A model generated the notes under the pieces. It was not told the DNA's origin. It saw nothing but the letters and a program-made list of their open reading frames with translations, and searched no databases. A stretch of 23,516 nucleotides of DNA from a virus, in the IMG/VR virus record IMGVR_UViG_3300028598_000009, positions 1 to 23,516 of that record. One strand, given 5' to 3'. Positions within the stretch are counted from its first letter, which is position 1; each line of letters begins with the position of its first letter. Made by a program: the position numbers and the translations under genes. Below, piece after piece: positions 1 through 12,104 of the stretch.

Positions 1-176
1 TAAAAACTGAGCGCCAACATTTCATTTAAGACTAGCGCCCACGCTTGATGTCTGAATTTTGCCTCCTTGTCTGTTATTTCAACCAAGACCGGGGCCTGCT
101 CGTCGTCTAAAGGAATAAAGCAATTCTTTTGAAGCTCCACAGCCAAAGGCAAGTCCTCGTCATATTTTATAGGCAT
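1..176 (-). CDS. Hypothetical protein, cut by the window edge
   Basis: The frame is open from an ATG at 176 to the window edge, giving 58 codons without a stop, so the C-terminus is missing. The protein begins MPIKYDEDLPLAVEL and is acidic near its start. The upstream gene ends at 178, one base away from this ATG, which fits the tight packing of the leftward operon. No family was recognised. Support comes from the open frame and spacing only. Confidence 0.55.
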   Translation of the reverse strand, partial: MPIKYDEDLPLAVELQKNCFIPLDDEQAPVLVEITDKEAKFRHQAWALVLNEMLALSF

Positions 177-177
177 A

Positions 178-363
178 TCACATCCTCTCGTTATCCAGCC
201 TATCCAAATCAACCGGTGGATAGATTGGCTTGCTTTTGCCGTCTACACTGGCAATCGTTGTTGCCCCACAATATTTACAACACATAGTCGGCCCGAAATA
301 TAACTCGAACTTGTGATCACAGTCGCGCCAGTCGTTTTTGGTTTCCAGCCTATCCATAATCAT
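178..363 (-). CDS. Small Cys-rich protein, zinc-ribbon-like
   Basis: This is a 61-residue protein of unknown function. It contains CDH near residue 15 and a CCKYC cluster near residue 28, a spacing that suggests a small metal-binding knuckle. Its ATG at 363 overlaps the stop of the preceding gene as TAATG, so translation is probably coupled. A second ATG at 357 is possible. The zinc binding is inferred from the cysteines; no family was identified. Confidence 0.6.
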   Translation of the reverse strand: MIMDRLETKNDWRDCDHKFELYFGPTMCCKYCGATTIASVDGKSKPIYPPVDLDRLDNERM

Positions 364-656
364 TAACTCTGCGGATACCTGTAGTCACGAATGACTTTCA
401 GTGCAGCATTACACCGAATTAACGCCTCACCTTGCAGGTTCATCGGTTTAATCGGCGGGTTATGGCTCTGCGCCCAATCAACCGGACAATCAGGGGATAA
501 CGCATAGTCAATATCCTCCAGCACCTTTAACAAATCAGTACACCGCCGCGTGAGGTCGTCCAAGTATGGTTCAGGATTAGCGAGCACCTGGGCCTTGCCG
601 ATTGCCAACCTAGTTTGTAGCTCCGCTAATTTTTGCCTGAATGCAATATCGCTCAT
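363..656 (-). CDS. Hypothetical phage protein, 97 aa
   Basis: The protein is 97 residues, soluble and mostly helical, beginning MSDIAFRQKLAELQTRL. A GGAGGT ribosome binding site lies four bases before the ATG, a strong start. It is the first gene after the tRNA-like RNA at 674-795 and overlaps the next gene by one stop/start unit. It has one CNAALKVIRDYRYP segment near the C-terminus. No recognised family and no membrane segment. Confidence 0.7.
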   Translation of the reverse strand: MSDIAFRQKLAELQTRLAIGKAQVLANPEPYLDDLTRRCTDLLKVLEDIDYALSPDCPVDWAQSHNPPIKPMNLQGEALIRCNAALKVIRDYRYPQS

Positions 657-673
657 ATTACCTCCGCTCTATT

Positions 674-795
674 TGGTGGGCATGACAGGACTCAAACCTG
701 CAACTGATTTAGGCCAGACCACTGAGTCATCCTCGCCGACGGTTCAGTACCGGGCTTTCCCGTCCGCCCGTGCATTACTTTTCAGCCACATGCCC
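674..795 (-). ncRNA. tRNA-like RNA without a clear anticodon arm
   Basis: On the minus strand, GGGCATG (795-789) pairs perfectly with CATGCCC near the 3' end as a seven-base-pair acceptor stem. It is followed by discriminator A and an encoded CCA (676-674). Just inside is a T-arm: GCAGG, loop TTTGAGT, CCTGT. The element is 122 nt, too long for a normal tRNA. A scan by eye found no five-base-pair stem with a seven-base loop carrying U33. The interior has a GC-rich helix, GCGGACGG with CCGTCGGC (one mismatch). It sits exactly in the gap between two genes. It may be a degenerate tRNA, a tRNA with an insertion, or a tRNA-like regulatory RNA. Confidence 0.5.
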
Positions 796-805
796 ATTGA
801 TCATT

Positions 806-1315
806 TCACTCTACCTTATTCGCCATTTCCTTGATTCTGTCCCTGACCCATTTCATCGTCTGACTCTTGTCCTCCATGAACGGCAAATCTCGGTGGGTGT
901 TGTAGAAATCCCGTAGTTCCTCAGCCATCATCACGTCCTTGAATTTCCCGTCTATCGTGAAGTTCAGGTGGTGGGCGCAATACTCGAATCTCGCCCCATG
1001 CGTTAGATCTGGGCAACCCTCCACGCTGCAATATTTTGCCTCATACCTTTGGGTGAGTTCAGCATGTGATTCAATTTCCACGTCCCATCTCGCCTGGTTC
1101 AGCCATGTCGAGGCAAAGGGCCAACGATCTACGTCCTCCCCCTTGTTCTTGGCATCCCGGTCATACTTGATCTGGGCTTGCAGGGCTAATACCACTTTCT
1201 CAGGCTCAGTGACGTGCTTATCCCACGACTCCTCGGCCTTGGACTTACCGCCCTTGTTCTTTGCCCCCCGACAAAGGTCTGAGGGGTAGAGGCTCCAGAA
1301 TGTGTCAAAATTCAT
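806..1315 (-). CDS. Putative replication-related phage protein with Cys/His cluster
   Basis: The 169-residue protein begins MNFDTFWSLYP, followed by Lys-rich sequence and a conserved-looking Trp. This FxxFWxxYP...K...W pattern is common near the ends of phage replication proteins of the O/DnaT type, but here it stands at the N-terminus. Residues about 94-116 hold a CSVEGC ... CAHH cluster that could bind zinc. The AAGGAG site six bases before the ATG at 1315 fixes the start. The link to replication is a resemblance only; the protein could be a DNA-binding accessory factor. Confidence 0.65.
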   Translation of the reverse strand: MNFDTFWSLYPSDLCRGAKNKGGKSKAEESWDKHVTEPEKVVLALQAQIKYDRDAKNKGEDVDRWPFASTWLNQARWDVEIESHAELTQRYEAKYCSVEGCPDLTHGARFEYCAHHLNFTIDGKFKDVMMAEELRDFYNTHRDLPFMEDKSQTMKWVRDRIKEMANKVE

Positions 1316-1330
1316 GCTTTCTCCTTACAT

Positions 1331-1552
1331 TTATGCATATCTCGCCCCTTTTCCCCTAGGATCTATATGTCCTGGGTACTCAGCCTTCCCCTTGTAATCC
1401 CCTCTCTTAGGGTTCCTAGGGCCAGGTTGACAGTGGGCGCGGTCATTGCCTGGATTCTTGATATGTATTCGATGCCTCGCAGTAACCCTGCCGTTGCTTG
1501 TACCCGTTGGGGCGAGTTTGAATATGAGGAGAATGTGGTATACTTGACTCAT
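1331..1552 (-). CDS. Doubtful small ORF, 73 aa
   Basis: An open frame from ATG 1552 to TAA 1331 would give MSQVYHILLIFKLAP and then a basic, Pro/Gly-rich tail. It lies just downstream of a possible leftward promoter at 1571-1598. It has no convincing ribosome binding site and its composition is unlike its neighbours. The 330-base stretch between the genes ending at 1315 and 1649 may be mainly regulatory. I list it so that the stretch is accounted for. Confidence 0.2.
   Translation of the reverse strand: MSQVYHILLIFKLAPTGTSNGRVTARHRIHIKNPGNDRAHCQPGPRNPKRGDYKGKAEYPGHIDPRGKGARYA
1517..1544 (+). promoter_or_regulatory. Possible rightward promoter, extended -10
   Basis: TGG followed by TATACT at 1536-1544 is an extended -10 element matching five of six consensus bases. 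The -35 is weak: TTTGAA with 16 bases or TTGAAT with 15 bases of spacing. A start near 1551 would give an RNA of about 95 nt ending at the terminator at 1624-1650. The element is the left arm of an inverted repeat. Confidence 0.35.
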
Positions 1553-1580
1553 ATTGTTGATCGCACCTTCAATATACCAC
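1535..1580. repeat. Inverted repeat over facing promoters
   Basis: GTGGTATA at 1535-1542 is the exact reverse complement of TATACCAC at 1573-1580. Inner TTGA (1544-1547) and TCAA (1569-1572) extend the symmetry with a one-base offset. The arms coincide with the two extended -10 elements, so a dimeric regulator or the promoters themselves could explain the symmetry. Confidence 0.6.
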
Positions 1581-1648
1581 TTGGCCAAAAAAAGGCAAGT
1601 CGGTCTGAGCACCTAGCTCCCTGACCCCGCTTCGGCGGGGTTTTGTAT
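1551..1648 (+). ncRNA. Candidate small RNA, about 95 nt
   Basis: A plus-strand transcript from the promoter at 1517-1544 would end at the intrinsic terminator at 1624-1650. It has no plausible coding frame of its own. It could form a hairpin pairing CTTGGCC with GGCAAG around an A7 loop near 1580-1600, then the UUCG-capped terminator. All flanking genes are on the other strand, so a plus-strand terminator here needs a plus-strand transcript. This is an inference from promoter and terminator only. Confidence 0.35.
1571..1598 (-). promoter_or_regulatory. Possible leftward promoter, extended -10
   Basis: On the minus strand TTGCCT (1598-1593), 16 bases, then TATATT (1576-1571) preceded by TGG makes an extended -10 promoter. 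It would start RNA near 1564 and drive the genes from 1315 leftward. Its -10 region is the right arm of the inverted repeat GTGGTATA (1535-1542) / TATACCAC (1573-1580), so it faces the rightward promoter. Confidence 0.4.
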
Positions 1649-1650
1649 TT
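1624..1650 (+). terminator. Intrinsic terminator, plus strand
   Basis: ACCCCGC and GCGGGGT form a seven-base-pair stem capped by TTCG, followed by TTTGTATTT. The UUCG loop and T-tract are on the plus strand only; read on the minus strand it has no T-tract. Confidence 0.7.
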
Positions 1651-1915
1651 AATCGGTAACGAGTTCAATTTCTTTATCCACCCTCAGAATGAGACTCTTA
1701 TCGTTGGCGCTGCCAGTAGTGCCATACATGGATGATTCTTGATAAAAGTTTTGCTGTCTGATCCATCCACCCTGGCAATCGTAGAAACTGCCAGAAAATA
1801 TCTGGGCATTGATTTTCTCGTTAATCATCATCGAGATTACGTCTTTCTCAAACTTGGATTCCGGCGTAATAACCAACTGTAATACCCCGTCTTCAATGTA
1901 TATCGCTGTTTTCAT
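1649..1915 (-). CDS. Hypothetical protein, 88 aa
   Basis: The 88-residue protein begins MKTAIYIEDGVLQLVITPES and reads as a compact mixed alpha/beta domain without membrane segments. A GGGAGG ribosome binding site precedes the ATG at 1915. That site lies at the edge of a hairpin (1924-1941), so pairing could affect translation. No family was recognised. Gene reality is supported by a good start signal and amino-acid composition typical of the neighbours. Confidence 0.65.
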   Translation of the reverse strand: MKTAIYIEDGVLQLVITPESKFEKDVISMMINEKINAQIFSGSFYDCQGGWIRQQNFYQESSMYGTTGSANDKSLILRVDKEIELVTD

Positions 1916-1923
1916 AATTCCCT

Positions 1924-1951
1924 CCCTGTCTTCGGACGGGGCTTTCTATTT
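1924..1951 (+). terminator. Possible plus-strand terminator upstream of 88-aa gene
   Basis: CCCTGTC and GACGGGG form a seven-base-pair stem (one T.G pair) with a TTCG loop, followed by CTTTCTATTT. As at 1624, the loop and T-tract face the plus strand although the genes here are on the minus strand. On the minus strand the same arms border the ribosome binding site of the 88-aa gene. Confidence 0.4.
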
Positions 1952-2161
1952 AACCAGTTTAAGATTTGGCGGATTTCCGTCACCATAATCTGCCACCGCC
2001 TCAAGCATTAGAAATTCGCCGTTTTCATCGCCAGTCAGATCAACCTCGTCGTAGCATTTCCCGTCCCTATTGAAAAAATAGACCTCCCTTTCTTCAATAT
2101 TTTCATCTGGGTAAATCGTTTCATAGGCTGACAAGAAAGCTATTAATTTATTCAATTTCAT
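1946..2161 (-). CDS. Hypothetical acidic protein, 71 aa
   Basis: Starting at the ATG at 2161 the protein is 71 residues, MKLNKLIAFLSAYETIYPDEN. An in-frame GTG at 2170 would add three residues, but AAGGTG six bases before 2161 acts as the ribosome binding site and favours the ATG. It is strongly acidic, with a GDENGEFLMLEAVADYGDG stretch. It resembles small phage proteins of unknown role; I cannot name a family. Confidence 0.65.
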   Translation of the reverse strand: MKLNKLIAFLSAYETIYPDENIEEREVYFFNRDGKCYDEVDLTGDENGEFLMLEAVADYGDGNPPNLKLVK

Positions 2162-2178
2162 CTCATTCACCTTGGTTT

Positions 2179-2379
2179 CTATTTGGGGTTATCATTCCAA
2201 CCAAGTAAATATTCAGGATCGTTCCGGTGCTCGATGCAGGACCAGACAACCTCATCCTCGCCCCTGAATTGGTTTAGCTGAATATGAACTTTGCGTTTAC
2301 CGATCTCACCACACCGGCACTTGGCACAGATATTCCTGTCCCTGATTTCCGTCTTGCCGATTCTAGGGTACTCCCTCAT
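2179..2379 (-). CDS. Small zinc-binding-like protein, 66 aa
   Basis: The 66-residue protein carries CAKCRC near residues 18-23 and a later CIEH near residue 48, a plausible Cys/His metal site. AAGGAG seven bases upstream of the ATG at 2379 is a strong ribosome binding site. That start region is the first copy of a direct repeat shared with 2783-2824. Function unknown. Confidence 0.65.
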   Translation of the reverse strand: MREYPRIGKTEIRDRNICAKCRCGEIGKRKVHIQLNQFRGEDEVVWSCIEHRNDPEYLLGWNDNPK

Positions 2380-2418
2380 CTCTCACTCCTTGGTTTTAAG
2401 GTTGCGGATTTCATCTAC
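2377..2418. repeat. Direct repeat A, copy 1
   Basis: This stretch is nearly the same as 2783-2824. Both carry catctctcactccttggttt and continue with similar bases. It holds the ribosome binding site of the downstream gene and the C-terminal codons of the upstream gene. Confidence 0.75.
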
Positions 2419-2547
2419 CTGTTGATTCAGGTTATCCAGCATTCTCTCAATAGTGGTTAATATGGTTTCTATTGCCTTCGGCTCCGTCTTGTTGGCAATC
2501 TCCCACATATCATTACTGAGCTTGGCCTGTAATTCCTCAAAGTTCAT
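2383..2547 (-). CDS. Small helical protein, 54 aa, paralogue of 2789-3004
   Basis: This frame runs from ATG 2547 to TGA 2383 and gives 54 residues, MNFEELQAKLSND to DEIRNLKTKE. GGAGAG lies upstream of the ATG. Its ends match the 71-aa protein at 2789-3004 (MKFDEW ... DEIRQLKTKE), and the bases on both sides are repeated too, so the two are diverged copies of one cassette. It looks fully helical and possibly coiled-coil. Function unknown. Confidence 0.65.
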   Translation of the reverse strand: MNFEELQAKLSNDMWEIANKTEPKAIETILTTIERMLDNLNQQVDEIRNLKTKE

Positions 2548-2570
2548 CGTTCTCTCCTAATAGGCCCTGA
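2544..2570. repeat. Direct repeat B, copy 1
   Basis: This 27-base stretch matches 3001-3027 with one mismatch. It covers the start codon and ribosome binding site of the 54-aa gene, and the corresponding start of the 71-aa gene in copy 2. Confidence 0.8.
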
Positions 2571-2572
2571 AG

Positions 2573-2785
2573 TCATGCCGGGTTATCATCACTCATCGCC
2601 GCTAACAGCTTTTCATGTTTGCTGCGTAGATTAAAATATTTGGCCTGGTATTCGGCTAATGCCTTAAACCTTGCTTCCATTTCGTCAATAGTGATTATTT
2701 CTTGTGTCTTTACATTTTCAAGATATTGATTTGTATAGAGATCATTACCCAGAGCGTCCCCGCCATATAATTTATACATTCCCAT
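2573..2785 (-). CDS. Hypothetical protein, 70 aa
   Basis: The 70-residue protein begins MGMYKLYGGDALGNDLYTNQ and ends in a helical region rich in Ala, Lys and Glu. AAGGAG precedes the ATG at 2785; a second ATG at 2779 is possible. It lies between the two copies of the duplicated cassette and is the only unique gene there. No family recognised. Confidence 0.65.
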   Translation of the reverse strand: MGMYKLYGGDALGNDLYTNQYLENVKTQEIITIDEMEARFKALAEYQAKYFNLRSKHEKLLAAMSDDNPA

Positions 2786-2824
2786 CTCTCACTCCTTGGT
2801 TTTGAGTTGGCGAATTTCATCTGC
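2783..2824. repeat. Direct repeat A, copy 2
   Basis: Second copy of the repeat at 2377-2418. It again encodes the LKTKE ending of one gene and the ribosome binding site of the next. Confidence 0.75.
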
Positions 2825-3004
2825 AAGGCTGAATAAGTTGTCACAGATAGTTGCACCATCGTCATGCGTGTAGCCTTTGTATTCCTCAGCCACTTTCGCC
2901 GCTTCCTCAAGGGCTGAACTCCACGCTATTTGCGCCTCAATACGACATAATTCATCAGCATTAGCGACTTTCTTTTGTTCTCTCCACCATTCATCAAACT
3001 TCAT
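2789..3004 (-). CDS. Hypothetical helical protein, 71 aa
   Basis: The protein is 71 residues, MKFDEWWREQKKVANADEL, with a WSSALEEAAKVAEEYKG core that resembles many small phage proteins carrying a Trp-x(3-4)-Leu-x-x-Ala-Ala helix. It ends DEIRQLKTKE like its paralogue at 2383-2547. A GGAGAG site precedes the ATG at 3004. The function of this group is not known. Confidence 0.65.
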   Translation of the reverse strand: MKFDEWWREQKKVANADELCRIEAQIAWSSALEEAAKVAEEYKGYTHDDGATICDNLFSLADEIRQLKTKE

Positions 3005-3027
3005 CGCTCTCTCCTAATAGGCCCTGA
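3001..3027. repeat. Direct repeat B, copy 2
   Basis: Second copy of the 27-base repeat at 2544-2570. Here it also encodes the last residues of the 51-aa gene ending at 3014. Confidence 0.8.
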
Positions 3028-3169
3028 TACGGCATTTGAAGTGGAACACCGCTCGGGGTATCCGACAATCAAACTTTAATCTTCCATCTTTTGCGTCTAC
3101 GAAGTACGGCTTATTCATCCCAGAATGTCCGAATCGTCGTTTATTCTTGTAGTCATGGAGTGCTTTCAT
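3014..3169 (-). CDS. Small basic protein, 51 aa
   Basis: This frame runs from ATG 3169 to TAG 3014. Its ATG overlaps the preceding stop as ATGA, which supports it as a real, coupled gene. The 51 residues are strongly basic (MKALHDYKNKRRFGHSG ...) with two cysteines near residues 35 and 46, and could bind nucleic acid. It fills what would otherwise be a gap in a tightly packed operon. Function unknown. Confidence 0.6.
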   Translation of the reverse strand: MKALHDYKNKRRFGHSGMNKPYFVDAKDGRLKFDCRIPRAVFHFKCRIRAY

Positions 3170-3480
3170 TTGTTGTCATTAATGGCCTTAATAATGGCTT
3201 TAATTTCTTCAAAGTCGCGATGATCCTGTGGACAATGCTTTATTGCCAGGACAAACATGCGTAGATACCCCGAGCTTACAGTAAGGAGTTCTTCTTTAAG
3301 CGGGGTAATTTCGGCGTCTGCGGCCTTTCTAGCTTTATCGCTAGCGTCAATCATCATATTGAGCCATTCTATTTCTGCCTCTAGTCCATTAATTCTTTCA
3401 AGCGCGGCAGTAAATATCTGGCTCCCCATATATCTGTAAAGGTGCGCCGTATCCTGCTCGATTTCCTCCCATCTGATCAT
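3166..3480 (-). CDS. Coiled-coil protein, 104 aa
   Basis: The 104-residue protein has a long central helix with leucines and isoleucines at heptad-like spacing (about residues 28-65), so it is probably a coiled coil. GGAGGG sits next to the ATG at 3480, which overlaps the previous stop as ATGA. Charged and soluble, with no membrane segment. No recognised family. Confidence 0.65.
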   Translation of the reverse strand: MIRWEEIEQDTAHLYRYMGSQIFTAALERINGLEAEIEWLNMMIDASDKARKAADAEITPLKEELLTVSSGYLRMFVLAIKHCPQDHRDFEEIKAIIKAINDNK

Positions 3481-3785
3481 CCCTCCCCCTCCAAGGCTAA
3501 TACCGCGTGACAGATAGCGAGGTTGAGGGATTCCCCATCTCCAAAATCACGACTTATATCTATCATTGTTTCATAGCGCATGGCTCTGCTGACTCTTGCT
3601 AGCAGTTCCCGCAACAACTGAAAGGCTTGCGCGTCATTGGTGTCTGGGGTATATCTCTCACCAGAGGCAACCAGTATTACGCTAGGCCATTCTTCGTCTA
3701 ACTCACGATAGGCTTCGGGCAGAACAACCGCCTCATGCCCCGCAAACTCAGCCAGTTGCTTATATTGTTCTGGTGTTAGGTTCAT
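3477..3785 (-). CDS. Hypothetical phage protein, 102 aa
   Basis: The protein has 102 residues, MNLTPEQYKQLAEFAGHEAVV at the start and a C-terminal MRYETMIDISRDFGDGESLN region. It ends in a short LALEGEG tail. It is acidic, soluble and densely coded, with the next gene overlapping its stop. I recognise no named family. Confidence 0.65.
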   Translation of the reverse strand: MNLTPEQYKQLAEFAGHEAVVLPEAYRELDEEWPSVILVASGERYTPDTNDAQAFQLLRELLARVSRAMRYETMIDISRDFGDGESLNLAICHAVLALEGEG

Positions 3786-3787
3786 AG

Positions 3788-4012
3788 TTATTCCTTGGGC
3801 TTATAATCAACCGTTCTGTCATAAACAAACTCGCCGTCATCGTTTCTTGTATAGACTTCTTCTGGCGGTTTCCATGATGTTGTTTCGCTTATTTTCAACT
3901 CTGCATCCTCGGCCATAGTTATCCGTTTACGCAGATAGACAAGCGGCTGACGTGGATATATTTCAATAGACTCTCCATCCCTGCTGCCACCGATTAATTT
4001 TACAGTCTTCAT
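3788..4012 (-). CDS. GG-x-DG motif phage protein, 74 aa
   Basis: The likely start is ATG 4012, because AAGGAA lies six bases upstream and the preceding gene stops at 4015. An upstream in-frame ATG at 4081 would lie deep inside that gene. The protein begins MKTVKLIGGSRDGESIEI. The L-x-GG-xx-DG pattern near the N-terminus is typical of a widespread family of small phage proteins of unknown function. Confidence 0.65.
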   Translation of the reverse strand: MKTVKLIGGSRDGESIEIYPRQPLVYLRKRITMAEDAELKISETTSWKPPEEVYTRNDDGEFVYDRTVDYKPKE

Positions 4013-4014
4013 GT

Positions 4015-4314
4015 TTATTCCTTGGGGGGATTGGGTAGATAAGTCCAATAAGCGACATAGGGTCCACTCAAATATCCCCACTTGAATTTTTTTAGATCAA
4101 TCGAAGTTAGAAAGTCGAAACCCATAACTTTGCCGTCATCAAAGCAAACAATATAATCCCCATCTTTCTCCGGCAACCTCTCTTCCACGCTTATCCAGGG
4201 GTTGAGGTAGGCTTGGGCGACTTCTAATATATCCAGGTGCGTCCATAACAACTCATCGTCCGGCACCTTTTTTGCCCACTCTAGTAACTTTTCAGCTTTC
4301 TCTCTCGTATCCAT
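4015..4314 (-). CDS. DUF551 domain protein
   Basis: The C-terminal part, from about residue 39, reads WISVEERLPEKDGDYIV, followed by FDDG and YWTYLPNPP. This is the pattern of DUF551, a domain common in phages and prophages with no known biochemical role. An N-terminal helical extension of about 38 residues precedes it. The ATG at 4314 overlaps the YopX-like gene stop as TAATG, with a good AGGAAAGGA site. Confidence 0.85.
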   Translation of the reverse strand: MDTREKAEKLLEWAKKVPDDELLWTHLDILEVAQAYLNPWISVEERLPEKDGDYIVCFDDGKVMGFDFLTSIDLKKFKWGYLSGPYVAYWTYLPNPPKE

Positions 4315-4703
4315 TATCCTTTCCTAATTAGGTCGGGGTGCTGATGTATATTGCCGATGACTTCAAAAGGTTGATCGGTTAAATTCTTAAGTCCCCGAAC
4401 CTCATGCTCGCTTTCTTTATCCGGCATTACCCCCCGAAAGCATCCGTCTACATATTCGACAATTAACGGGACGCCAACTACAAACATATTTTCAGACAAG
4501 ATAATATCTAACTCGTATGTCTCAACACCGTTCTTATCGTGTAATCCGGTGTACTGATCTACCTCTAAATGCTGCAAGTCCTCAGCGCGAGGCGGACAGA
4601 TTAAAGTACACTCGCCAAAGAGATGAAACCCATAAAATTTAAGCTCCGTCTCATACCAGCATTTGTTCTTCTTATCCCACGCCCTGAATTTCAGTTCCCG
4701 CAT
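4314..4703 (-). CDS. YopX family protein
   Basis: The 129-residue protein begins MRELKFRAWDKKNKCWYET, the signature start of the YopX family. It has the usual later elements: QYTGLHDKNG near residues 50-59, then DI and VIGNIHQHPDL near the end. YopX proteins are frequent in phage early regions; their function is unknown. AGAGGT precedes the ATG at 4703. Confidence 0.9.
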   Translation of the reverse strand: MRELKFRAWDKKNKCWYETELKFYGFHLFGECTLICPPRAEDLQHLEVDQYTGLHDKNGVETYELDIILSENMFVVGVPLIVEYVDGCFRGVMPDKESEHEVRGLKNLTDQPFEVIGNIHQHPDLIRKG

Positions 4704-4728
4704 AATAGTGACCTCTTTAGCCCATACG

Positions 4729-4959
4729 TTATTGCTTAACTGCCCACTTAGTTATCAAGGTAGGGAGTTTTAATTCGTTCCCCCAGCCACATCCGATGTT
4801 CGGGCACCATAGAAAACCAGTAGACTCAACCGTAAATGAACCGCATTCAGGGCAGTTAAGGCCGTCATAACGGATAGGCTGTAAGTTTTGCAGCGCCTTA
4901 ATAGTTTCCGCATTGGACGCATTGGCTACCCCGACAATTTTTGGATCGTAATCGCTCAT
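4729..4959 (-). CDS. Zinc-ribbon protein, 76 aa
   Basis: Residues about 36-57 contain CPECG and then CPNIGC, a classic two-knuckle zinc ribbon. A 35-residue helical N-terminal part precedes it. The protein may bind DNA, RNA or a protein partner; the sequence does not say which. It is the second gene of the leftward early operon, after the helix-turn-helix gene. Its ribosome binding site is weak, so the start is less certain. Confidence 0.7.
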   Translation of the reverse strand: MSDYDPKIVGVANASNAETIKALQNLQPIRYDGLNCPECGSFTVESTGFLWCPNIGCGWGNELKLPTLITKWAVKQ

Positions 4960-4989
4960 CGTATTAACTGCCCATTCTCTGAAAGGCGT

Positions 4990-5157
4990 TTAGCCTTCCA
5001 TCCTCGCTTTCTCTGACCAGTAGCGCCGGTGGACCGCCGTTCTTGAGATCCCTAACAGCTTGGCAATCTGCCCGAAAGACTTACCTTTTTCGTCATACAA
5101 TTTGACAATCCGCTTACGCTCTCTGGCGAACTGCCGCATTTCGGCCTTGGTGGTCAT
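4990..5157 (-). CDS. Small helix-turn-helix DNA-binding protein, 55 aa
   Basis: This frame runs from ATG 5157 to TAA 4990, with AAGGGG six bases upstream. Residues about 18-48 read as a helix-turn-helix: IVKLYDEKGKSFGQIAKLLG, then ISRTAVHRRYW, with the usual Ala and Gly positions. The N-terminus is basic. At 55 residues it is little more than the DNA-binding domain. As the first leftward gene next to overlapping divergent promoters, it is the natural candidate for a Cro-like or repressor role. It could equally be a packaging-type or sigma-like DNA binder, so the regulator role is inferred. Confidence 0.75.
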   Translation of the reverse strand: MTTKAEMRQFARERKRIVKLYDEKGKSFGQIAKLLGISRTAVHRRYWSEKARMEG

Positions 5158-5190
5158 ATCTGCCCCTTGAAATTATTTTTCGGTTAACCC

Positions 5191-5219
5191 TTGACGTTAA
5201 CAGTAAACTAGATTATGGT
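5191..5219 (+). promoter_or_regulatory. Rightward early promoter
   Basis: TTGACG (5191-5196), a 17-base spacer and TATGGT (5214-5219) match sigma70 elements in five and four positions. Transcription would start near 5226, about 32 bases before the first gene's ATG at 5258. It overlaps the leftward promoter almost completely. Confidence 0.6.
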
Positions 5220-5228
5220 TATTGTCAA
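5197..5228. promoter_or_regulatory. Candidate operator dyad
   Basis: TTAACAGTAAAC (5197-5208) and GGTTATTGTCAA (5217-5228) are an imperfect inverted repeat, 9 of 12 positions, with an eight-base centre. GTTAAC also occurs twice, at 5183-5188 and 5196-5201. The dyad covers the spacer and -35 regions of both promoters, as expected for an operator. Confidence 0.5.
5200..5228 (-). promoter_or_regulatory. Leftward early promoter
   Basis: On the minus strand TTGACA (5228-5223), a perfect -35, is followed after 17 bases by TACTGT (5205-5200), a weak -10. A start near 5193 gives a leader of about 36 bases before the helix-turn-helix gene. Confidence 0.5.
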
Positions 5229-5257
5229 GATGTTTGATTAATTACCGAGAGGGAACC

Positions 5258-5524
5258 ATGTCTCACTTTGAACACCACCATGAACTCCGCGCCGAGTATT
5301 TCCTGGAGCAGTTGATCCGGCGCAATCCGATCCCCTGGTTCGGCACTAATTGCAATATGCACGATATACGGGACGCATGGCGCAATGAACGGTTCCAACT
5401 CAAGGCCGGGGTGGATTGGGACGACGCCACCCTTGAAGACAGGCTCAGGAAGGACGTGAGAGAAGATTTCAGGGAATATCTCTCAGACTGGTGCCTAGAG
5501 GCTGCCAGGACAGAAGTACGTTAA
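5258..5524 (+). CDS. Hypothetical protein, 88 aa
   Basis: This is the first gene of the rightward early operon. ATG 5258 is chosen because GAGGG lies just upstream and the promoter start is near 5226; a longer TTG frame would begin at 5222, before the transcript starts. The protein is acidic with a His-rich start (MSHFEHHHELRAEYF) and a C-terminal helical segment rich in Arg, Asp and Glu. No family recognised. Confidence 0.65.
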   Translation: MSHFEHHHELRAEYFLEQLIRRNPIPWFGTNCNMHDIRDAWRNERFQLKAGVDWDDATLEDRLRKDVREDFREYLSDWCLEAARTEVR

Positions 5525-5536
5525 GAGAGGATAACA

Positions 5537-5944
5537 ATGAAATATGACGTGTATTCCAGACCCACCGGGGTCCATGTGGGGATCTTAACTGACAAAGGCA
5601 TTCCTTATGCCAATAACTCCGAGGCCTTCAAAAACCTGATCAGCCAGATTGCCCGTGGAGTTACCAGTGAAGACAAGATCGTGATCGTGGCTCGAGCCTA
5701 CATCAAGGATCAGTGGGGCAGGAGTACGAACTTCCTCGATGGTCACTGGAAGCGCCGGGCCAAACTGGCGGACTTGCAGGGGTATCGGATCAAGAAAACG
5801 CCCAAGCAGATTGAGGAAATAACCCGAATTGTAACAAGGTTATCTGAGAGGCGGGGCTTCTCCATCACCAAGATCGTAAATGAAACCCAACTGACCAAAC
5901 CCCAGATAAGACACATATTGGGTTTTGACTGGACGCAAGCCTAG
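5537..5944 (+). CDS. Possible DNA-binding protein, 135 aa
   Basis: The protein has a mixed alpha/beta N-terminal region and a basic middle (GHWKRRAKLADLQGYRIKK). The C-terminal part, about residues 95-130, resembles a helix-turn-helix: ERRGFSITKIVNETQLTKPQ, then IRHIL. An AGAGGA site precedes the ATG. Its position as second gene after the early promoter suits a regulator, but the fold is inferred from the C-terminal pattern only. Confidence 0.6.
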   Translation: MKYDVYSRPTGVHVGILTDKGIPYANNSEAFKNLISQIARGVTSEDKIVIVARAYIKDQWGRSTNFLDGHWKRRAKLADLQGYRIKKTPKQIEEITRIVTRLSERRGFSITKIVNETQLTKPQIRHILGFDWTQA

Positions 5945-5949
5945 TAACC

Positions 5950-6039
5950 ATGCGGGTTTCCAGACACGAAAACGGCGAGAAACGGCCTACCTTGGTAATG
6001 GTACAAAACAGGCGTTTAACGTATTTAAGAGGATATTAA
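5950..6039 (+). CDS. Candidate micro-ORF, 29 aa
   Basis: An ATG at 5950 opens a 29-codon basic frame (MRVSRHENGEKRPTLVMVQN ...) that ends at 6039, three bases before the next start. It exactly fills a 98-base gap. No ribosome binding site is visible before it, so it may be chance. The gap has no other recognisable element beyond the AAGAGGA site for the next gene. Confidence 0.25.
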   Translation: MRVSRHENGEKRPTLVMVQNRRLTYLRGY

Positions 6040-6042
6040 TAT

Positions 6043-6483
6043 ATGGAACGCAGAATAGAATTTGGTGCCGCTTATGACAAACGGGACGCCGATCCAAAAA
6101 AGAATTATGGCATTCATGGCGTCACCATTTCATTTTATCTGATTGGCGATGAGGGCGCAGTGCAATTTGTTGTTTATTCAAACTGGCAGCTCCCCCACGT
6201 CCAAGCCGAGTTTGACGCTAAGGGTGTGGATGGTATGCGCGATCCATGTTGGCGTTATAAACCTATGGCGGCGGATCTAGGCTATCACAGTCCGAAACCA
6301 ACTTATGAAGGCCAAACCCCGATGAGCGGTGAGTGTCATCTGTTGGGGGGAGAATGTTTCTATGATGGCTCAACTCTAAATGCCGAACCAGTATTTGACA
6401 GACTTCTAAAAGAAGGAAGCGATGGCGTTTGGGACGAGCTGGAGAGTTTCTATAAAGATATTTTTAGCGCGGAGGCGGACTAA
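6043..6483 (+). CDS. Conserved hypothetical phage protein, 146 aa
   Basis: The 146-residue protein contains DLGYHSPKPTYEGQTPMSGEC near residues 79-99, then FYDGSTLNAEPVFDRLLKEG. I recall similar segments in conserved phage and prophage proteins of unknown function. It has a Trp-rich middle and an acidic end. AAGAGGA lies upstream of ATG 6043. The stop overlaps the next ATG as TAATG. Confidence 0.75.
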   Translation: MERRIEFGAAYDKRDADPKKNYGIHGVTISFYLIGDEGAVQFVVYSNWQLPHVQAEFDAKGVDGMRDPCWRYKPMAADLGYHSPKPTYEGQTPMSGECHLLGGECFYDGSTLNAEPVFDRLLKEGSDGVWDELESFYKDIFSAEAD

Positions 6484-6653
6484 TGGACACTAACCAATTA
6501 CGTCAAGTATTCGATTTGAACAACTATCTGATCTGGATGGATAACGTGATCGCCAGCTTTGAAAGCGGGGGCCGCAATATCTCCAGCGGGTGTTATCAAG
6601 AACTCACGAAGAAACGGGAACAATGCGCCCAGCGGTTAGCGGAGTTGCAGTGA
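6483..6653 (+). CDS. Small helical protein, 56 aa
   Basis: ATG 6483 overlaps the previous stop as TAATG, and the frame closes at TGA 6653. The 56 residues, MDTNQLRQVFDLNNYLIWMD to RLAELQ, look helical and soluble. The stop/start overlap on both sides supports a real, coupled gene. Function unknown. Confidence 0.65.
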   Translation: MDTNQLRQVFDLNNYLIWMDNVIASFESGGRNISSGCYQELTKKREQCAQRLAELQ

Positions 6654-6826
6654 CCTGCCGCTGGTTCATCTGTGCCCTGATTGCCGGTGTCTGTTGTGGA
6701 TTCTATGCAATGGCCCCTTATCTGGATTACTACGGGGAGGGGAGCTTTAAGTGGGTAACGTATGAGCCAGCATTTGCAATAGTGGCCGGGTTATTTGTGG
6801 TGATTGGTTTACTGATTAAGGATTAA
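6650..6826 (+). CDS. Small membrane protein, 58 aa, GTG start
   Basis: GTG 6650 overlaps the previous stop as GTGA and has GGAG five bases before it, making it a better start than ATG 6623 or GTG 6590 inside the previous gene. The 58 residues hold two hydrophobic segments, about 5-22 and 38-55, so it is probably a two-helix inner-membrane protein. Such proteins in phage early regions can act in exclusion or host takeover, but nothing here says so directly. Confidence 0.65.
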   Translation: MTCRWFICALIAGVCCGFYAMAPYLDYYGEGSFKWVTYEPAFAIVAGLFVVIGLLIKD

Positions 6827-6830
6827 GGAA

Positions 6831-7106
6831 ATGAGTGAATATACGAAAGGGCCTTGGTTTGAAAATTGGAACCGCGTGTTTACTGGGTCGTTCGGTGATC
6901 CAGACTCCGAATTGATATGCGTGGTGGATGGGGACAGCAACGCAAAAGCCAATGCCCACCTGATAGCCGCCGCCCCTGAACTGTATGAGGCATTGAAAGG
7001 GTATATGGAATCCGAATGGATGGTGACGCATGATTGGGGCGGGGACAGAGATGCAGTAAGAGAAAAGGCCGAGAAAGCCATTAACAAGGCAGAGGGTAAA
7101 CCCTAA
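6831..7106 (+). CDS. Phage protein with NAxLIAAAPELxEAL motif
   Basis: The N-terminus (MSEYTKGPWFENW) and the block NAHLIAAAPELYEALKGYME around residues 41-60 are the hallmark of a widespread small phage protein group that includes Ea22-like C-terminal regions. The role is not known. The coding region starts four bases after the previous stop. Confidence 0.8.
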   Translation: MSEYTKGPWFENWNRVFTGSFGDPDSELICVVDGDSNAKANAHLIAAAPELYEALKGYMESEWMVTHDWGGDRDAVREKAEKAINKAEGKP

Positions 7107-7115
7107 GAGGATAAT

Positions 7116-7271
7116 ATGATGGAGTTAATCGGTTATTTAATAGCGGGAATATCTGGTGGGATTTGGAGCTATTTAGGACACAAGTTCGACCTTAGCCCCG
7201 GACGGTTTGCGCTTGGTTTCATTCCCTTAATTCTGGCTCTGGTTGCTGGAATGTTTGTTGGTAAATTTTAG
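7116..7271 (+). CDS. Small membrane protein, 51 aa
   Basis: AGAGGA precedes ATG 7116 (a second ATG follows at once). The frame ends at TAG 7271. The 51 residues contain two hydrophobic segments, about 3-20 and 31-48, joined by a short polar turn (GHKFDLSPGR). A two-helix membrane protein with small loops is likely. It is the second such gene in this operon. No family named. Confidence 0.65.
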   Translation: MMELIGYLIAGISGGIWSYLGHKFDLSPGRFALGFIPLILALVAGMFVGKF

Positions 7272-7283
7272 AGGATAAACACC

Positions 7284-7478
7284 ATGACCCCCTTAACACA
7301 ATGCAGAGTGAATTTTATATTGAGCCTTCAACGATTGATCGCTCATGCTGAGGCAGGGAAGGGAACCGATATTACTGGACCGCTATTAAAGATAGCAAAT
7401 GATTGTCATGGAGAGATGCAGGTGTGTGAGTTTGACGCGAGGCAGGAGTGTGCCAGAAATTGTGGAGGGGCGTGTTGA
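7284..7478 (+). CDS. Small Cys-rich protein, 64 aa
   Basis: The 64-residue protein has seven cysteines or histidines in its second half, ending CARNCGGAC. It may bind metal or form disulfides. An AGAGGA site lies upstream. The stop overlaps the next start as TGATG. Function unknown. Confidence 0.6.
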   Translation: MTPLTQCRVNFILSLQRLIAHAEAGKGTDITGPLLKIANDCHGEMQVCEFDARQECARNCGGAC

Positions 7479-7852
7479 TGTTATACAGAACCGGCGCATA
7501 TCGGCTTGTAACCCGTGACTTGGTTAAGTCGCAGATAAGACAAGACGGATGGAAAAGGCTCAACCGTGAACCGCGACCTGATAATTATCAGGAAATCATG
7601 GTGGCCAGAGAGCACATAAATAAAGATTACGGCGTAACTGACGAATTTTTAATATCCTATGGCGAGTACGACGCTAAAACTGATTCTTTGCGTCCCTGTG
7701 TTGATGTGCTATTGAAAGAGCCCATTCCTTTCTCTGAGTTTCAATGGTGGAAGCCAGTTTGGAATCCAGCCGAGCTAGATGTGCTTAAACTGCATGTTGG
7801 TAATATTGTAACAGGAATCGAAGGCCGTTTATGCGGAATGAGAGAGATATGA
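7478..7852 (+). CDS. Hypothetical protein, 124 aa
   Basis: ATG 7478 is favoured over an earlier GTG (7448) because GGAGGG lies eight bases upstream and TGATG joins it to the previous stop. The protein, MLYRTGAYRLVTRDLVKSQ, has a Trp-rich C-terminal part (FSEFQWWKPVWNPAEL) and no membrane segment. I recognise no family. Confidence 0.65.
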   Translation: MLYRTGAYRLVTRDLVKSQIRQDGWKRLNREPRPDNYQEIMVAREHINKDYGVTDEFLISYGEYDAKTDSLRPCVDVLLKEPIPFSEFQWWKPVWNPAELDVLKLHVGNIVTGIEGRLCGMREI

Positions 7853-7914
7853 TGCAAAACAGGAAGATTTACAACGGGCAAAGAATATGGCCAGGAGGGG
7901 ATGTTGATGGATAA
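7849..7914 (+). CDS. Candidate micro-ORF, 21 aa
   Basis: An ATGA overlap with the preceding stop opens a 21-codon frame, MMQNRKIYNGQRIWPGGDVD plus Gly, which ends inside the next gene. It spans the 50-base gap and would couple translation of the next gene. Its size makes chance likely. Confidence 0.25.
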   Translation: MMQNRKIYNGQRIWPGGDVDG

Positions 7915-8095
7915 CATGAAAACAGAGGAAGAAGAATTGGACGCCATTAACGGGCTATATGTCGGGATGCTCTCCGATGAAGAAATGGAGCTCTTTAATG
8001 AGTGCGTATCTAAGAGGCTGGCCTATCGAGCCTATGAAGGAACCGCAGGCTTGATGGGTTTGGCAAAGGTAAGAAAGGCGAGAGACGATGCCTAA
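7907..8095 (+). CDS. Acidic protein, 62 aa
   Basis: ATG 7907 lies six bases after GGAGGGG; the earlier ATG 7901 is too close to it. The protein is acidic at the start (MDNMKTEEEELDAINGL) and basic at the end, and looks helical. No family recognised. The rest of the operon continues in the same direction. Confidence 0.6.
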   Translation: MDNMKTEEEELDAINGLYVGMLSDEEMELFNECVSKRLAYRAYEGTAGLMGLAKVRKARDDA

Positions 8096-8124
8096 CCACA
8101 AACCCCATACCTATGAGGAAGGCG

Positions 8125-8406
8125 ATGCAATATAAACGAATCAAGACCTCAGTTGAGGTATGGCGAGCAATTAAAGCCGCGCATCCTGATCTGGTCGTCG
8201 TTAGCACCTTCTCTGCGCCGGATGGTGATCCTTACGGGAATCCGTCTGAGGGACGCATGTTCACAGAATACGGCTTTCAAAAGGCGGACTGTCCATTGAT
8301 GGGAGCAGATACGCGGTGGGACATTGATCGTGATAACCCATTAAACCGCAATAACCTCAGAGAGGAATTCTGGCTCTGTACGCCGGAGAAAGACGATGAG
8401 TATTGA
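8125..8406 (+). CDS. Hypothetical protein, 93 aa
   Basis: ATG 8125 is supported by GAGG six bases upstream; ATG 8113 would add four residues. The 93-residue protein has a conserved-looking middle, DGDPYGNPSEGRMFTEYGF, then DTRWDIDRD. It is acidic and soluble. The function is unknown. Confidence 0.6.
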   Translation: MQYKRIKTSVEVWRAIKAAHPDLVVVSTFSAPDGDPYGNPSEGRMFTEYGFQKADCPLMGADTRWDIDRDNPLNRNNLREEFWLCTPEKDDEY

Positions 8407-8593
8407 GTTTAGGTGGTTGTTAAGTCGTCAGCCGATGAAGATGGGGTCTATTAATGTCGGCAGTTATGAACAACCTATCTTTCAGATGTTGCAATATCGA
8501 ACAGCAGAGCATTTCTATATCCAAACAGAAGGCTTCACGGTCAAGCAGCTATGGTCTGATTGGCTGGATATTCCGGCAGAGTGGGAGAAATGA
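8396..8593 (+). CDS. Hypothetical protein, 65 aa
   Basis: ATG 8396 lies seven bases after GGAG and overlaps the previous gene by 11 bases. The 65 residues are rich in aromatic amino acids (W, F, Y), ending WSDWLDIPAEWEK. The composition suggests a small folded domain. No family recognised. Confidence 0.6.
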   Translation: MSIEFRWLLSRQPMKMGSINVGSYEQPIFQMLQYRTAEHFYIQTEGFTVKQLWSDWLDIPAEWEK

Positions 8594-8594
8594 G

Positions 8595-8747
8595 ATGAGT
8601 AAGATGGGTCAATATGTACTGGAGCATCAGGTGGACGATCCGAATGAGCTACAGGGAGAGGAACGGGTCGAGTATGAGGATTATCTGGATATGGTTAATG
8701 AACTATTAGCGGAGGCAAGCGATGAAGATATACGACGAACTGAGTAA
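8595..8747 (+). CDS. Acidic small protein, 50 aa
   Basis: ATG 8595 follows the previous stop by one base and has GGGAGAAATGAG before it. The 50 residues are very acidic (DDPNELQGEERVEYEDYLD ...). The frame can be read further upstream, but only by overlapping the previous gene fully. It overlaps the annealing-protein start by 26 bases, which suggests coupling. Confidence 0.6.
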   Translation: MSKMGQYVLEHQVDDPNELQGEERVEYEDYLDMVNELLAEASDEDIRRTE

Positions 8748-9369
8748 GCCGTTTCCGGCAGAGCGCATTCATTGGCGCATCGGTTCCACCAACAAGAAAA
8801 AGGTGATCCGGGAAACCGGCAACCAGAGCGCCAAACCTACAAAGGGGATTCCCTTGGCTTATATCGACGCAAGGGATGTAATGGAGCGTCTGGATTTTGT
8901 GGTTGGGCCCGGCAACTGGCAGTGTCGTTATCCTTATCAGGGTTGCTGCGAGATAGGCTTAAGAATCGGGCCGCCAACAGAATGGATATGGAAATCCAAT
9001 GGGGCTGGGGTGACGGATGTTGAGGCTGAGAAAGGCCAATACTCCGATGCCTTCAAACGGGCGGCGGTCCTATGGGGGATCGGGCGGTATCTGTATGATC
9101 TCCCGAATACATGGGTTGATCTGGATGATTGGGGCAAACCCAAGCAACCGCCTAAATTACCCGACTGGGCCACTCCCGCAGGCTGGAACCGGATTCCTTT
9201 AAGCCAGCGACAGGACTTCCACAAACAGATGCTCGAACACTTAGCAAACAATGATGAGTCTGGGGCGAGAGAGTTAATAGCGGAATGGACTGAGACAGAA
9301 GACAAACTTCAGCTTTGGGCTATGTTCGATTCAACACAACGCGCAGCAATAAAGGTATTTCAAAAATGA
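8722..9369 (+). CDS. Rad52-type single-strand annealing protein
   Basis: Residues about 5-135 match the phage Rad52/Rad22 family: [35 protein letters not shown] with NWQ, then [20 protein letters not shown] and [11 protein letters not shown]. The family anneals complementary single strands coated with SSB and supports phage recombination, often in place of Red-beta. The C-terminal third is less conserved and ends in a charged helical region. The stop overlaps the ssb start as ATGA, so the two products are probably made together. The family call is strong; activity is inferred. Confidence 0.9.
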
Positions 9370-9809
9370 GCGGCATAAACAAAGTAATTCTAATCGGCAA
9401 TCTCGGCAAAGACCCCGAAGTTCGTTATTCCCCCAGCGGTGGGGCAATCGCTAATTTAACCTTGGCCACCAGCGAGTCGTGGAAGGACAAGAATACTGGC
9501 GACAAGGTTGAGAAGACAGAATGGCATCGGATCGTGGCCTTCAAGCGCACGGCTGAGATTATGGGCGAATACCTGAAGAAAGGCTCCAAGGTCTACATCG
9601 AGGGGAAGTTACAAACCCGGAAATGGCAGGATAAAGAGGGAAAGGATCGCTATACCACGGAGGTCGTAGCTAAAGACATGCAAATGCTGGATTCTCGCGG
9701 CAGTACGCAACAGGAAGCGCCGCAGCAGGGGGCACATCAACAGGCTGCCCCGACAGGTGGGGACTTTGACGATGACATTCCCTTTGCTCCGGTAAGCAGT
9801 AAGGTGTGA
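9366..9809 (+). CDS. ssb: Single-stranded DNA-binding protein
   Basis: ATG 9366 overlaps the preceding stop as ATGA. The 147-residue protein has the OB-fold of bacterial SSB ([52 protein letters not shown]), then a Gln/Ala-rich linker. The acidic motif DFDDDIPF is present but followed by seven more residues (APVSSKV), so the usual free C-terminal Phe is absent. It coats single strands for the adjacent annealing protein. Confidence 0.95.
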
Positions 9810-9810
9810 C

Positions 9811-9969
9811 ATGACCTGCAAGAAACATCCTAACGCCATCATACGCACCTATAAACATGGTACGTGCTGTATGGAGTGTGAGCGAATACGGCAACGACAG
9901 CGGGGAGAGTTTGACCGGGTGAAAGTATTTGTGAAGCGCATGGGATGGCTGGAGGGATTGGAGAAATGA
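9811..9969 (+). CDS. Small Cys/His protein, 52 aa
   Basis: This frame starts one base after the ssb stop and ends at 9969, overlapping the next ATG as ATGA. The 52 residues carry C3, H6, H16, C19, C20 and C23, a likely zinc site, then a basic helix (CERIRQRQRGEFDRVKVFVK). It may bind nucleic acid. No family named. Confidence 0.65.
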   Translation: MTCKKHPNAIIRTYKHGTCCMECERIRQRQRGEFDRVKVFVKRMGWLEGLEK

Positions 9970-10166
9970 AAATAACCCGACATCAACAAAGCTGGGTATT
10001 ACGGTTTGATAATACCTTAGCCCAAAGGACGGTTTTAACCTTTGCCGGGTTCTCTTTGGTGGGTCAGGTTCGGTATGTGAATAATTATGGGAAGTTTCAC
10101 AGACAAGAGTTGATCAACGAACTTGATTACTACCTGAGGTGGGTAAGGCGGTGGTGGAAAAGCTAA
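9966..10166 (+). CDS. Hypothetical protein, 66 aa
   Basis: ATG 9966 overlaps the preceding stop and has GGAG near it. The 66 residues, MKITRHQQSWVLRFDNTLAQ, suggest beta strands followed by a basic, Trp-rich helix (YYLRWVRRWWKS). It could touch DNA or membrane. The function is unknown. Confidence 0.6.
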   Translation: MKITRHQQSWVLRFDNTLAQRTVLTFAGFSLVGQVRYVNNYGKFHRQELINELDYYLRWVRRWWKS

Positions 10167-10183
10167 TAACAAGGAGAAGGGAA

Positions 10184-10843
10184 ATGAAAATACTGTGGAT
10201 GGTATTACTGTTGATGATGGGAAGTGTTCAAGCCGAGGTTCAGGTCAACCTGATGAAGATGGTGAGATTGTCGAATGATGACAATTTCTATACCGGGGAC
10301 TGGTCCGGGATCGAACTCTCTTACCAGTTCAAAAATTCTCCCTGGTATGTTTATGGAGGGTATGAGGAAACCGGCGTGTATGCCGGGGGTCGGATCTGGG
10401 ACTACACCTTCAAAGGAGTGGGGTTTGGGATGAAGCATAAGCTGTCGGATCATGTGAATGTCTTTGGTCAGATCGGCTATTACTTTGTCGAGAACTCATG
10501 GGGAGGACGGCGGGCCGAATTCAACGAAGCGGGTCACTACTACTTGAATAGCCTGTGGCAAAACAGTTTGCCCGGACCCTATGACACGGGTGACTATTAC
10601 GTCTTTGATGAGTTCGAGGTCAAGAACAGCGACACCATCGGAGTCTCAGTGGGGATGGAGATCGATTATCCCCTGTCTAAAAACTGGAATGCCGGGTTCA
10701 TGGTGGCCTATCGGTATATGAATATTGATGAATATGTCGCCGGGTATCGGGATGAGTGGCCGGATGGTGAACATTGGGAATTGATACGTTCCCATGACTA
10801 CAGCTCACTCAATCTGGGCATCACAGTGGACTATCAGTTCTAG
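10184..10843 (+). CDS. Outer-membrane beta-barrel protein, secreted
   Basis: AAGGAG precedes ATG 10184. The first 18 residues, MKILWMVLLLMMGSVQA, are a signal peptide with an A-E cleavage site. The rest alternates polar and aromatic residues in short strands (GIELSYQF; WYVYGGYEET; VNVFGQIGYYFV) and ends in YQF, the C-terminal aromatic signature of barrels inserted by the BAM machinery. At about 200 mature residues it would be an eight-strand barrel. Phage barrels such as Lom-like proteins alter host surface or exclude other phages; which applies here is not shown. Confidence 0.8.
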   Translation: MKILWMVLLLMMGSVQAEVQVNLMKMVRLSNDDNFYTGDWSGIELSYQFKNSPWYVYGGYEETGVYAGGRIWDYTFKGVGFGMKHKLSDHVNVFGQIGYYFVENSWGGRRAEFNEAGHYYLNSLWQNSLPGPYDTGDYYVFDEFEVKNSDTIGVSVGMEIDYPLSKNWNAGFMVAYRYMNIDEYVAGYRDEWPDGEHWELIRSHDYSSLNLGITVDYQF

Positions 10844-10852
10844 GAGGGGAAA

Positions 10853-11002
10853 ATGAAAGATAAACATTGTTTAGAATGTAAGCACTTCGCACACGTCTGG
10901 CGAGGCTGGGGCCGGTGTTACAGATTCCCGCCCCACTTCTTCCTTCGATGGCCGTGGGTCAAACGGGAACACGGTTGCGGTGAACATGACCCGTCAAGGT
11001 AG
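10853..11002 (+). CDS. Small zinc-binding-like protein, 49 aa
   Basis: GGAGGGG precedes ATG 10853. The 49-residue protein holds CLECKH, then C22, and HGCGEH near the end, a likely four-ligand metal site, with a Trp/Phe-rich middle (RFPPHFFLRWPW). It is the last gene of the rightward operon, 20 bases before the terminator. The CxxC ... C ... C pattern recalls the late 53-aa protein at 18801-18962. Confidence 0.65.
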   Translation: MKDKHCLECKHFAHVWRGWGRCYRFPPHFFLRWPWVKREHGCGEHDPSR

Positions 11003-11021
11003 ACTACAATAATAACAGCTC

Positions 11022-11046
11022 AGGGGCTTCGGCCCCTTTTTATTTG
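11022..11046 (+). terminator. Intrinsic terminator of rightward early operon
   Basis: AGGGGC and GCCCCT pair around TTCG, followed by TTTTATTTG. It ends the rightward operon. The late leftward operon's last stop codon (11042-11040) lies inside the T-tract, so the two operons converge here. Confidence 0.9.
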
Positions 11047-11279
11047 TTTAACTCCCGGATCTTCTCAATCATCAGGTTACATTCATCAATAGCTTGGCCA
11101 CGCTCTGCGGCAAGTTCGGCAACATCCCGCCAGGTGTCGCCATTTAATTCTGGCCTGTCGCATTTCTGGAGCAAGGCCCCGGCATCAACGCTCAAACTGC
11201 TGCAAGATGTCATCAGGGGCGCGAGTATCAGCGCAACCAGATATATCCGCCGCCGTCCGAATAGTTCGGATTTTATCAC
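11040..11279 (-). CDS. Rz1: Rz1-like outer-membrane spanin
   Basis: GTG 11279 with AAGGTGG six bases upstream starts a 79-residue lipoprotein. A basic N-terminus and hydrophobic segment lead to a lipobox, LMTSC at residues 22-26, cleaved before the Cys. The mature part has two further Cys residues, as in many o-spanins. It overlaps the Rz gene by 95 bases in another frame, the usual Rz/Rz1 layout. With Rz it fuses inner and outer membranes at the end of lysis. Confidence 0.85.
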   Translation of the reverse strand: MIKSELFGRRRIYLVALILAPLMTSCSSLSVDAGALLQKCDRPELNGDTWRDVAELAAERGQAIDECNLMIEKIRELNK

Positions 11280-11481
11280 GATAGACCACCTTAATGGTTT
11301 CTTTGTCAGTTTCCAGCTCCGTCTGTAGTTGGGCGATCCGTCTATCTTTCTCTTTCAAGAGTTCGGCGTGTTGGGCCAAAACGTGATCTCGCCCAGCACG
11401 ATAAGAGAAGAAAGCTACAGCGGCAATCACGCCAACAATTAGCGCAACCTTGATCATTTTAGGGTTCAGTAAATTAATCAT
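11185..11481 (-). CDS. Rz: Rz-like inner-membrane spanin
   Basis: ATG 11481 overlaps the previous stop as ATGA and is preferred to GTG 11490. Residues about 10-27 are one membrane helix (KVALIVGVIAAVAFFSYRAG), followed by a periplasmic coiled coil (HAELLKEKDRRIAQLQTELE) and a short tail. This is the i-spanin layout. The next gene, Rz1, starts inside it. Confidence 0.85.
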   Translation of the reverse strand: MINLLNPKMIKVALIVGVIAAVAFFSYRAGRDHVLAQHAELLKEKDRRIAQLQTELETDKETIKVVYRDKIRTIRTAADISGCADTRAPDDILQQFER

Positions 11482-12097: not shown

Positions 12098-12104
12098 GAT
12101 TGCC

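Follow-up and report, generated by a model that had tools for sequence, protein, structure and literature searches.

A predicted pair of superimposed divergent promoters with a candidate operator beside a small helix-turn-helix gene in an IMG/VR virus sequence

The gap at positions 5158-5257 of the analysed virus sequence is probably where a short-tailed (podovirus-like) phage controls its two divergent early operons, with a single small autorepressor that occupies a symmetric operator and turns off both operons at once. The window, i.e. the whole stretch of 23,516 nucleotides under analysis, is a 23.5-kb virus sequence from an IMG/VR record and is probably a fragment. The assignment draws on the gene layout, the promoter matches, the dyad, the predicted helix-turn-helix (HTH) fold and the layout common to relatives, all as they appear at the sequence level. 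The promoter superposition is unusually complete and the feature was judged real and non-random; the class of system is ordinary phage biology.

Operon organization of the window

A first block of genes runs leftward from 5157 and reaches the left end, a second is rightward and covers 5258 to about 11002, and another runs leftward from 23505 to 11185. Structural genes, among them those for the scaffold and the major head protein, are in the last block. The sole leftward/rightward operon gap in the window is 5158-5257. Both arms around it are early-type, one being the replication-initiator side and the other the recombination/single-strand binding protein (SSB) side, and the late genes are located elsewhere. 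The first gene of the leftward operon encodes a 55-aa HTH protein; a YopX protein and a replication-initiation-like protein are encoded there as well. The layout is Cro-like, with a small HTH gene heading the early operon on the replication side and the recombination-side operon diverging from it. The main features are the following.

5158-5257, no strand: divergent early intergenic region, 100 bp, between the ATG of the 55-aa gene (minus) and the ATG of the 88-aa gene (plus)
4990-5157, minus strand: 55-aa HTH protein, first gene of the leftward operon; ribosome-binding site AAGGGG at 5163-5168
806-1315, minus strand: replication-initiation-like protein, leftward operon (PHROG 9474, 1.1e-7; PHROG 270, 1.8e-7)
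5258-5524, plus strand: 88-aa protein with no assigned function, first gene of the rightward early operon
5537-5944, plus strand: 135-aa conserved protein, 65% identical in contig G001; no Pfam or PHROG family
8722-9369, plus strand: Sak/Rad52/Erf-like annealing protein, rightward operon (Pfam Rad52_Rad22, 4.5e-14; Erf-annotated tblastn relatives)
9315-9809, plus strand: SSB, rightward operon (Pfam SSB, 1.7e-41)

Superimposed promoter pair

Both strands were scanned with a weighted sigma-70 model, the weights of which represent E. coli promoters. The 100-bp gap held 5 of the 19 best promoter sites of the whole window, including these:

5191-5219, plus strand: rightward sigma-70-like promoter TTGACG-17-TATGGT, consensus 9/12; rank 5 in the window, 10.2 bits; predicted start about 5226
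5200-5228, minus strand: leftward sigma-70-like promoter TTGACA-17-TACTGT; rank 8, 9.9 bits; predicted start about 5193
5197-5225, plus strand: alternative rightward promoter TTAACA-17-TATTGT, shifted by 6 bp; rank 10
5172-5200, minus strand: alternative leftward promoter TTAACG-17-AATAAT; rank 11

The alternative leftward promoter is less likely, since its start would fall within the ribosome-binding site. When the gap was shuffled, 2 of 3000 shuffles contained at least four sites of this quality and 13 of 3000 contained an antiparallel pair that overlaps. With a plain consensus scan of positions 1-12000, promoters were not in excess (18 compared with 16.8 +/- 3.2) and the leftward site was missed. 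The -35 element of the leftward promoter matches the consensus at 6/6 positions, its -10 element is weak (3/6), and the site fails a stricter 4-of-6 filter.

As an earlier note on this DNA had proposed, two predicted early promoters occupy the same DNA: 5191-5219 and 5228-5200 are exactly superimposed and antiparallel. By sequence match they form an overlapping divergent pair, lying on the same DNA with diverging starts. The description of the pair as face-to-face had to be corrected to divergent, because transcription is predicted to start at about 5226 and 5193 and to run apart; the predicted transcripts never run into each other. The claim that RNA polymerase would be unable to hold both promoters at once is supported by their full superposition. 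The use of promoters in 5158-5257 is presumed from these matches.

Dyad and candidate operator

The promoter pair is covered by a dyad, and a possible further half-site lies to its left.

5190-5229, no strand: candidate operator, dyad with two 20-nt arms, half-site CTTGACnnTAAC; 15/20 paired
5164-5175, plus strand: possible third half-site CCCTTGAAATTA, a direct repeat of 5188-5199 (CCCTTGACGTTA) with a spacing of 24

The 12-base imperfect dyad noticed earlier over both promoters was recovered with the arms CTTGACgtTAAC and GTTAttGTCAAG (5190-5201 and 5218-5229), which match at 10/12 positions and are nested as outer arms in the larger dyad. The latter is the window's best dyad with 20-nt arms, and its axis at 5209/5210 is the shared centre of both promoters. 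The half-sites are separated by 28 bp or about 2.7 helical turns, a spacing that a simple dimer would not easily fit. The exact operator pattern had 0 matches in all other IMG/VR contigs.

The symmetry might have a simpler origin: the dyad could be no operator and a mere symmetric image of the superimposed promoters, with RNA polymerase competition alone acting here and the 55-aa protein acting elsewhere. Promoter hexamer positions facing each other supply 9 of the 15 dyad pairs, and the dyad score, which 2 of 5000 dinucleotide-shuffled gaps attained, was met in 15 of 100 whole-window shuffles. However, 6 of the 8 positions outside the hexamers pair as well, so that the dyad is still unexpected with the promoters fixed (p about 0.006); the residual symmetry had a p of 0.0009 when the promoters were drawn from the sigma-70 model. 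The HTH gene, moreover, immediately adjoins the dyad. The superposition of two similar promoters in opposite orientation accounts for part of the dyad and extra symmetry for the rest, and a purely promoter-derived origin is considered unlikely.

The 55-aa HTH protein

The HTH gene reported beside the dyad was confirmed at 4990-5157 on the minus strand; it gave strong HTH profile matches and is the first gene of one arm. In Pfam, the protein matched HTH_23 (7.8e-8) and Sigma70_r4_2 (8.9e-7; 28.9 bits, cut-off 25.7), and HTH_28, HTH_7 and Sigma70_r4 were also above the curated cut-offs. The AlphaFold model of the protein alone consisted of three helices (4-23, 28-35 and 39-53) with a mean pLDDT of 92.9. 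The fold matches of this model were generic, namely the DeoR DNA-binding domain and (ECF) sigma region 4, all with an E of 0.08 or worse. No match to the HTH_3/Cro-type profile was detected in the window, and by its best Pfam match, HTH_23, the 55-aa protein falls outside the Cro/CI family. Homologues were found neither in IMG/VR nor among GenBank phages nor in contigs G001 and G002, and its family therefore offers no functional precedent. As judged from sequence, the protein would be an unusual regulator type in the place held by a small Cro-type regulator in the phages C72C1, ctXG6705 and Venkman.

In the favoured autorepressor scheme, the host sigma-70 RNA polymerase would start both early operons at the two superimposed divergent promoters. 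The leftward transcript would carry the 55-aa regulator first and replication-type genes further down, and the rightward one small genes of no assigned function, the Sak/Rad52-like annealing protein and SSB. The most likely target of the 55-aa protein, the first product of the leftward promoter, is the dyad at 5190-5229, and early transcription would fall as the protein builds up. Binding there would block both promoters, because the -35 and -10 elements of each lie within the site. The protein would then behave as a Cro acting alone (Cro without CI), combining negative autoregulation with shut-off of the opposite arm. Its binding to the dyad, and repression rather than activation as the outcome, are what we infer. 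If binding is confirmed, the region would be a very compact early control unit in which a single 40-bp operator serves two superimposed early promoters and a 55-aa protein of a different HTH type occupies Cro's place.

The sigma-type matches also allow the 55-aa protein to be an activator, or a stand-alone sigma-region-4-like protein acting at the -35 elements, instead of a classical repressor. Such a role agrees with the Sigma70_r4_2 score above its cut-off, with the fold match to ECF sigma region 4 and with the half-site, which includes the -35 element TTGAC. However, the generic homeodomain-like HTH_23 scores higher, and structural matches this weak are to be expected for any small three-helix HTH. 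Little probability was given to this role.

Switch behaviour

The earlier note had suggested a bistable lysis/lysogeny or early/late switch, with the mutually exclusive overlapping promoters and the 55-aa regulator holding the phage in one of two states. This was not borne out: a single regulator was recognised in the window, the candidate operator lies symmetrically over both promoters and both arms are early-type. A bistable switch needs a pair of regulators that repress each other, or a single regulator whose net effect on its own expression is positive, whereas a lone repressor with the same effect on both promoters has a single steady state. Since monotonic negative feedback by a single repressor has only this state, bistability would require something more: another repressor, an activating effect at low dose, or a regulator that affects the two promoters very unequally. 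Overlapping promoters can form a switch when their strengths differ and the regulator effects are very unequal (discussed in PMC4207663), and the leftward -10 is the weaker one here; the symmetric cover by the operator nevertheless leads equal repression to be expected. A possible second HTH in the 135-aa protein of the opposite arm could supply a second repressor, but it had no profile support and the structure model was poor.

Profiles of tyrosine and serine integrases and of S24 repressors had no match in the window (a fragment), G001, C72C1, ctnlZ23 or ctXG6705, and no integrase is annotated in C72C1, ctXG6705 or Venkman. Neither a CI-type repressor nor an integrase was found in the window, and no integrase in the searched relatives. 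Lysogeny genes may lie in the missing genome parts, which may change the picture. Bistability was rated very improbable. A further reading, also given a very low probability, is that a sigma-region-4-like 55-aa HTH reads the -35 itself (half-site CTTGACnnTAAC being the -35 plus flank) and competes with sigma-70 at both promoters; if true, such a protein would make a minimal early shut-off or switch out of one small protein and 40 bp of DNA.

Related phages

Profile scans with the Sak and 135-aa proteins recovered only G001, a 46.5-kb IMG/VR contig, and a Sak alignment run against the genome collection gave no relatives. The identities of G001 to the window were 65% for the 135-aa protein and 71-76% for the Sak protein. 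The divergent neighbour in G001 is a different, 70-aa protein of no clear family, and a comparable dyad is absent from its divergent gap. Contig G002 (L003) was set aside as a relative, its genome organisation being different.

The comparison set consisted of GenBank phages with a related stabilization protein (37-39% identity in C72C1, ctXG6705 and Venkman). A single small regulator at the divergent early gap was found in 3 of the 6 complete records:

Phage C72C1 (OQ984150): 66-aa regulator of the HTH_3/Cro-CI type; 92-bp gap; Sak and SSB opposite
ctXG6705 (MW202481): 58-aa regulator annotated 'cro'; erf opposite; strong promoters both ways
Methylophilales phage Venkman (MT375522): 55-aa regulator annotated 'Cro/CI family'

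HTVC106P, ctnlZ23 and ctDrO704 have a different organisation, as annotated. The window shares with the three phages the related stabilization protein and a single regulator of 55-66 aa at the divergent early gap. In contrast to the 55-aa protein, the regulators of these phages carry annotations or profile matches of the Cro/CI type or of transcriptional repressors. The two -35 elements of ctXG6705 are about 22 bp apart and back to back, whereas the pair in the window is superimposed. If binding is confirmed, phages with related structural genes would retain the arrangement of one small regulator beside the divergent early gap and swap the protein.

Comparison with known systems

In phage lambda, Cro is a small HTH protein encoded by the first gene of the replication-side early operon, opposite the recombination-side operon. 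The gene position of the 55-aa protein and its likely role as autorepressor of both early arms resemble those of Cro at PR and PL. The window differs in having no cI gene between the arms and in its one superimposed promoter pair, compared with the separate PL and PR and the triple operators of lambda. The 55-aa protein also matches profiles of the HTH_23/sigma-r4 type, not HTH_3/Cro.

Overlapping divergent promoters can belong to a real switch, as at Pr/Pc of the conjugative plasmid pLS20, where RcoLS20, a DNA-looping tetramer, activates and represses its own promoter (PMC4207663). The two systems are alike in that one of the overlapping divergent promoters drives the regulator gene and RNA polymerase would hold only one of them. 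In contrast, pLS20 is a plasmid with a looping, dual-action tetramer, and nothing in the window points to that. The literature on Cro-only control regions of lytic phages yielded nothing close.

Rightward leader and first rightward genes

The segment upstream of the first rightward gene is conserved in G001.

5236-5255, plus strand: conserved rightward leader GATTAATTACCGAGAGGGAA, ribosome-binding site included; matched at 19/20 columns, with one gap, at the same position of G001 (0/2000 shuffles)

The G001 copy, GATTAATTACCGAG(A)GGGAA, lies at about 44.01-44.03 kb. The leader is near-identical although the shared genes of the window and G001 are only 70-73% identical in DNA and the first rightward genes differ. 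It may be a translation signal or a module boundary. Of four exact matches to the leader pattern in IMG/VR, three were discarded as unrelated sequence without this layout. A conserved rightward -35/-10 pair was also considered and rejected: TTGCGT-17-TAAGGT, upstream of the shared leader in G001, aligns with TTGACG-17-TATGGT, yet it is missing from the G001 sites scoring more than 5 bits and is outscored by other positions there, so that only the leader is claimed as conserved. Searches with the 88-aa protein yielded no homologues. The conserved C-terminus of the 135-aa protein (SITKIVNETQLTKPQIRHILG) resembles an HTH, but the structure model is poor.

Other features of the window

Terminator-like hairpins with TTCG loops were observed at 11022-11037, 1623-1642 and 1924-1941, the first of them where the convergent early and late operons meet. 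The last sizeable rightward early gene (10139-10843) gave a weak, sub-threshold match to Gram-negative porin/outer-membrane beta-barrel profiles. In the late region, a 912-aa protein is encoded at 14141-16879, with no Pfam match and a marginal PHROG match only, and a DUF5675 protein at 11663-12163 is flanked by a spanin-like gene and structural genes.
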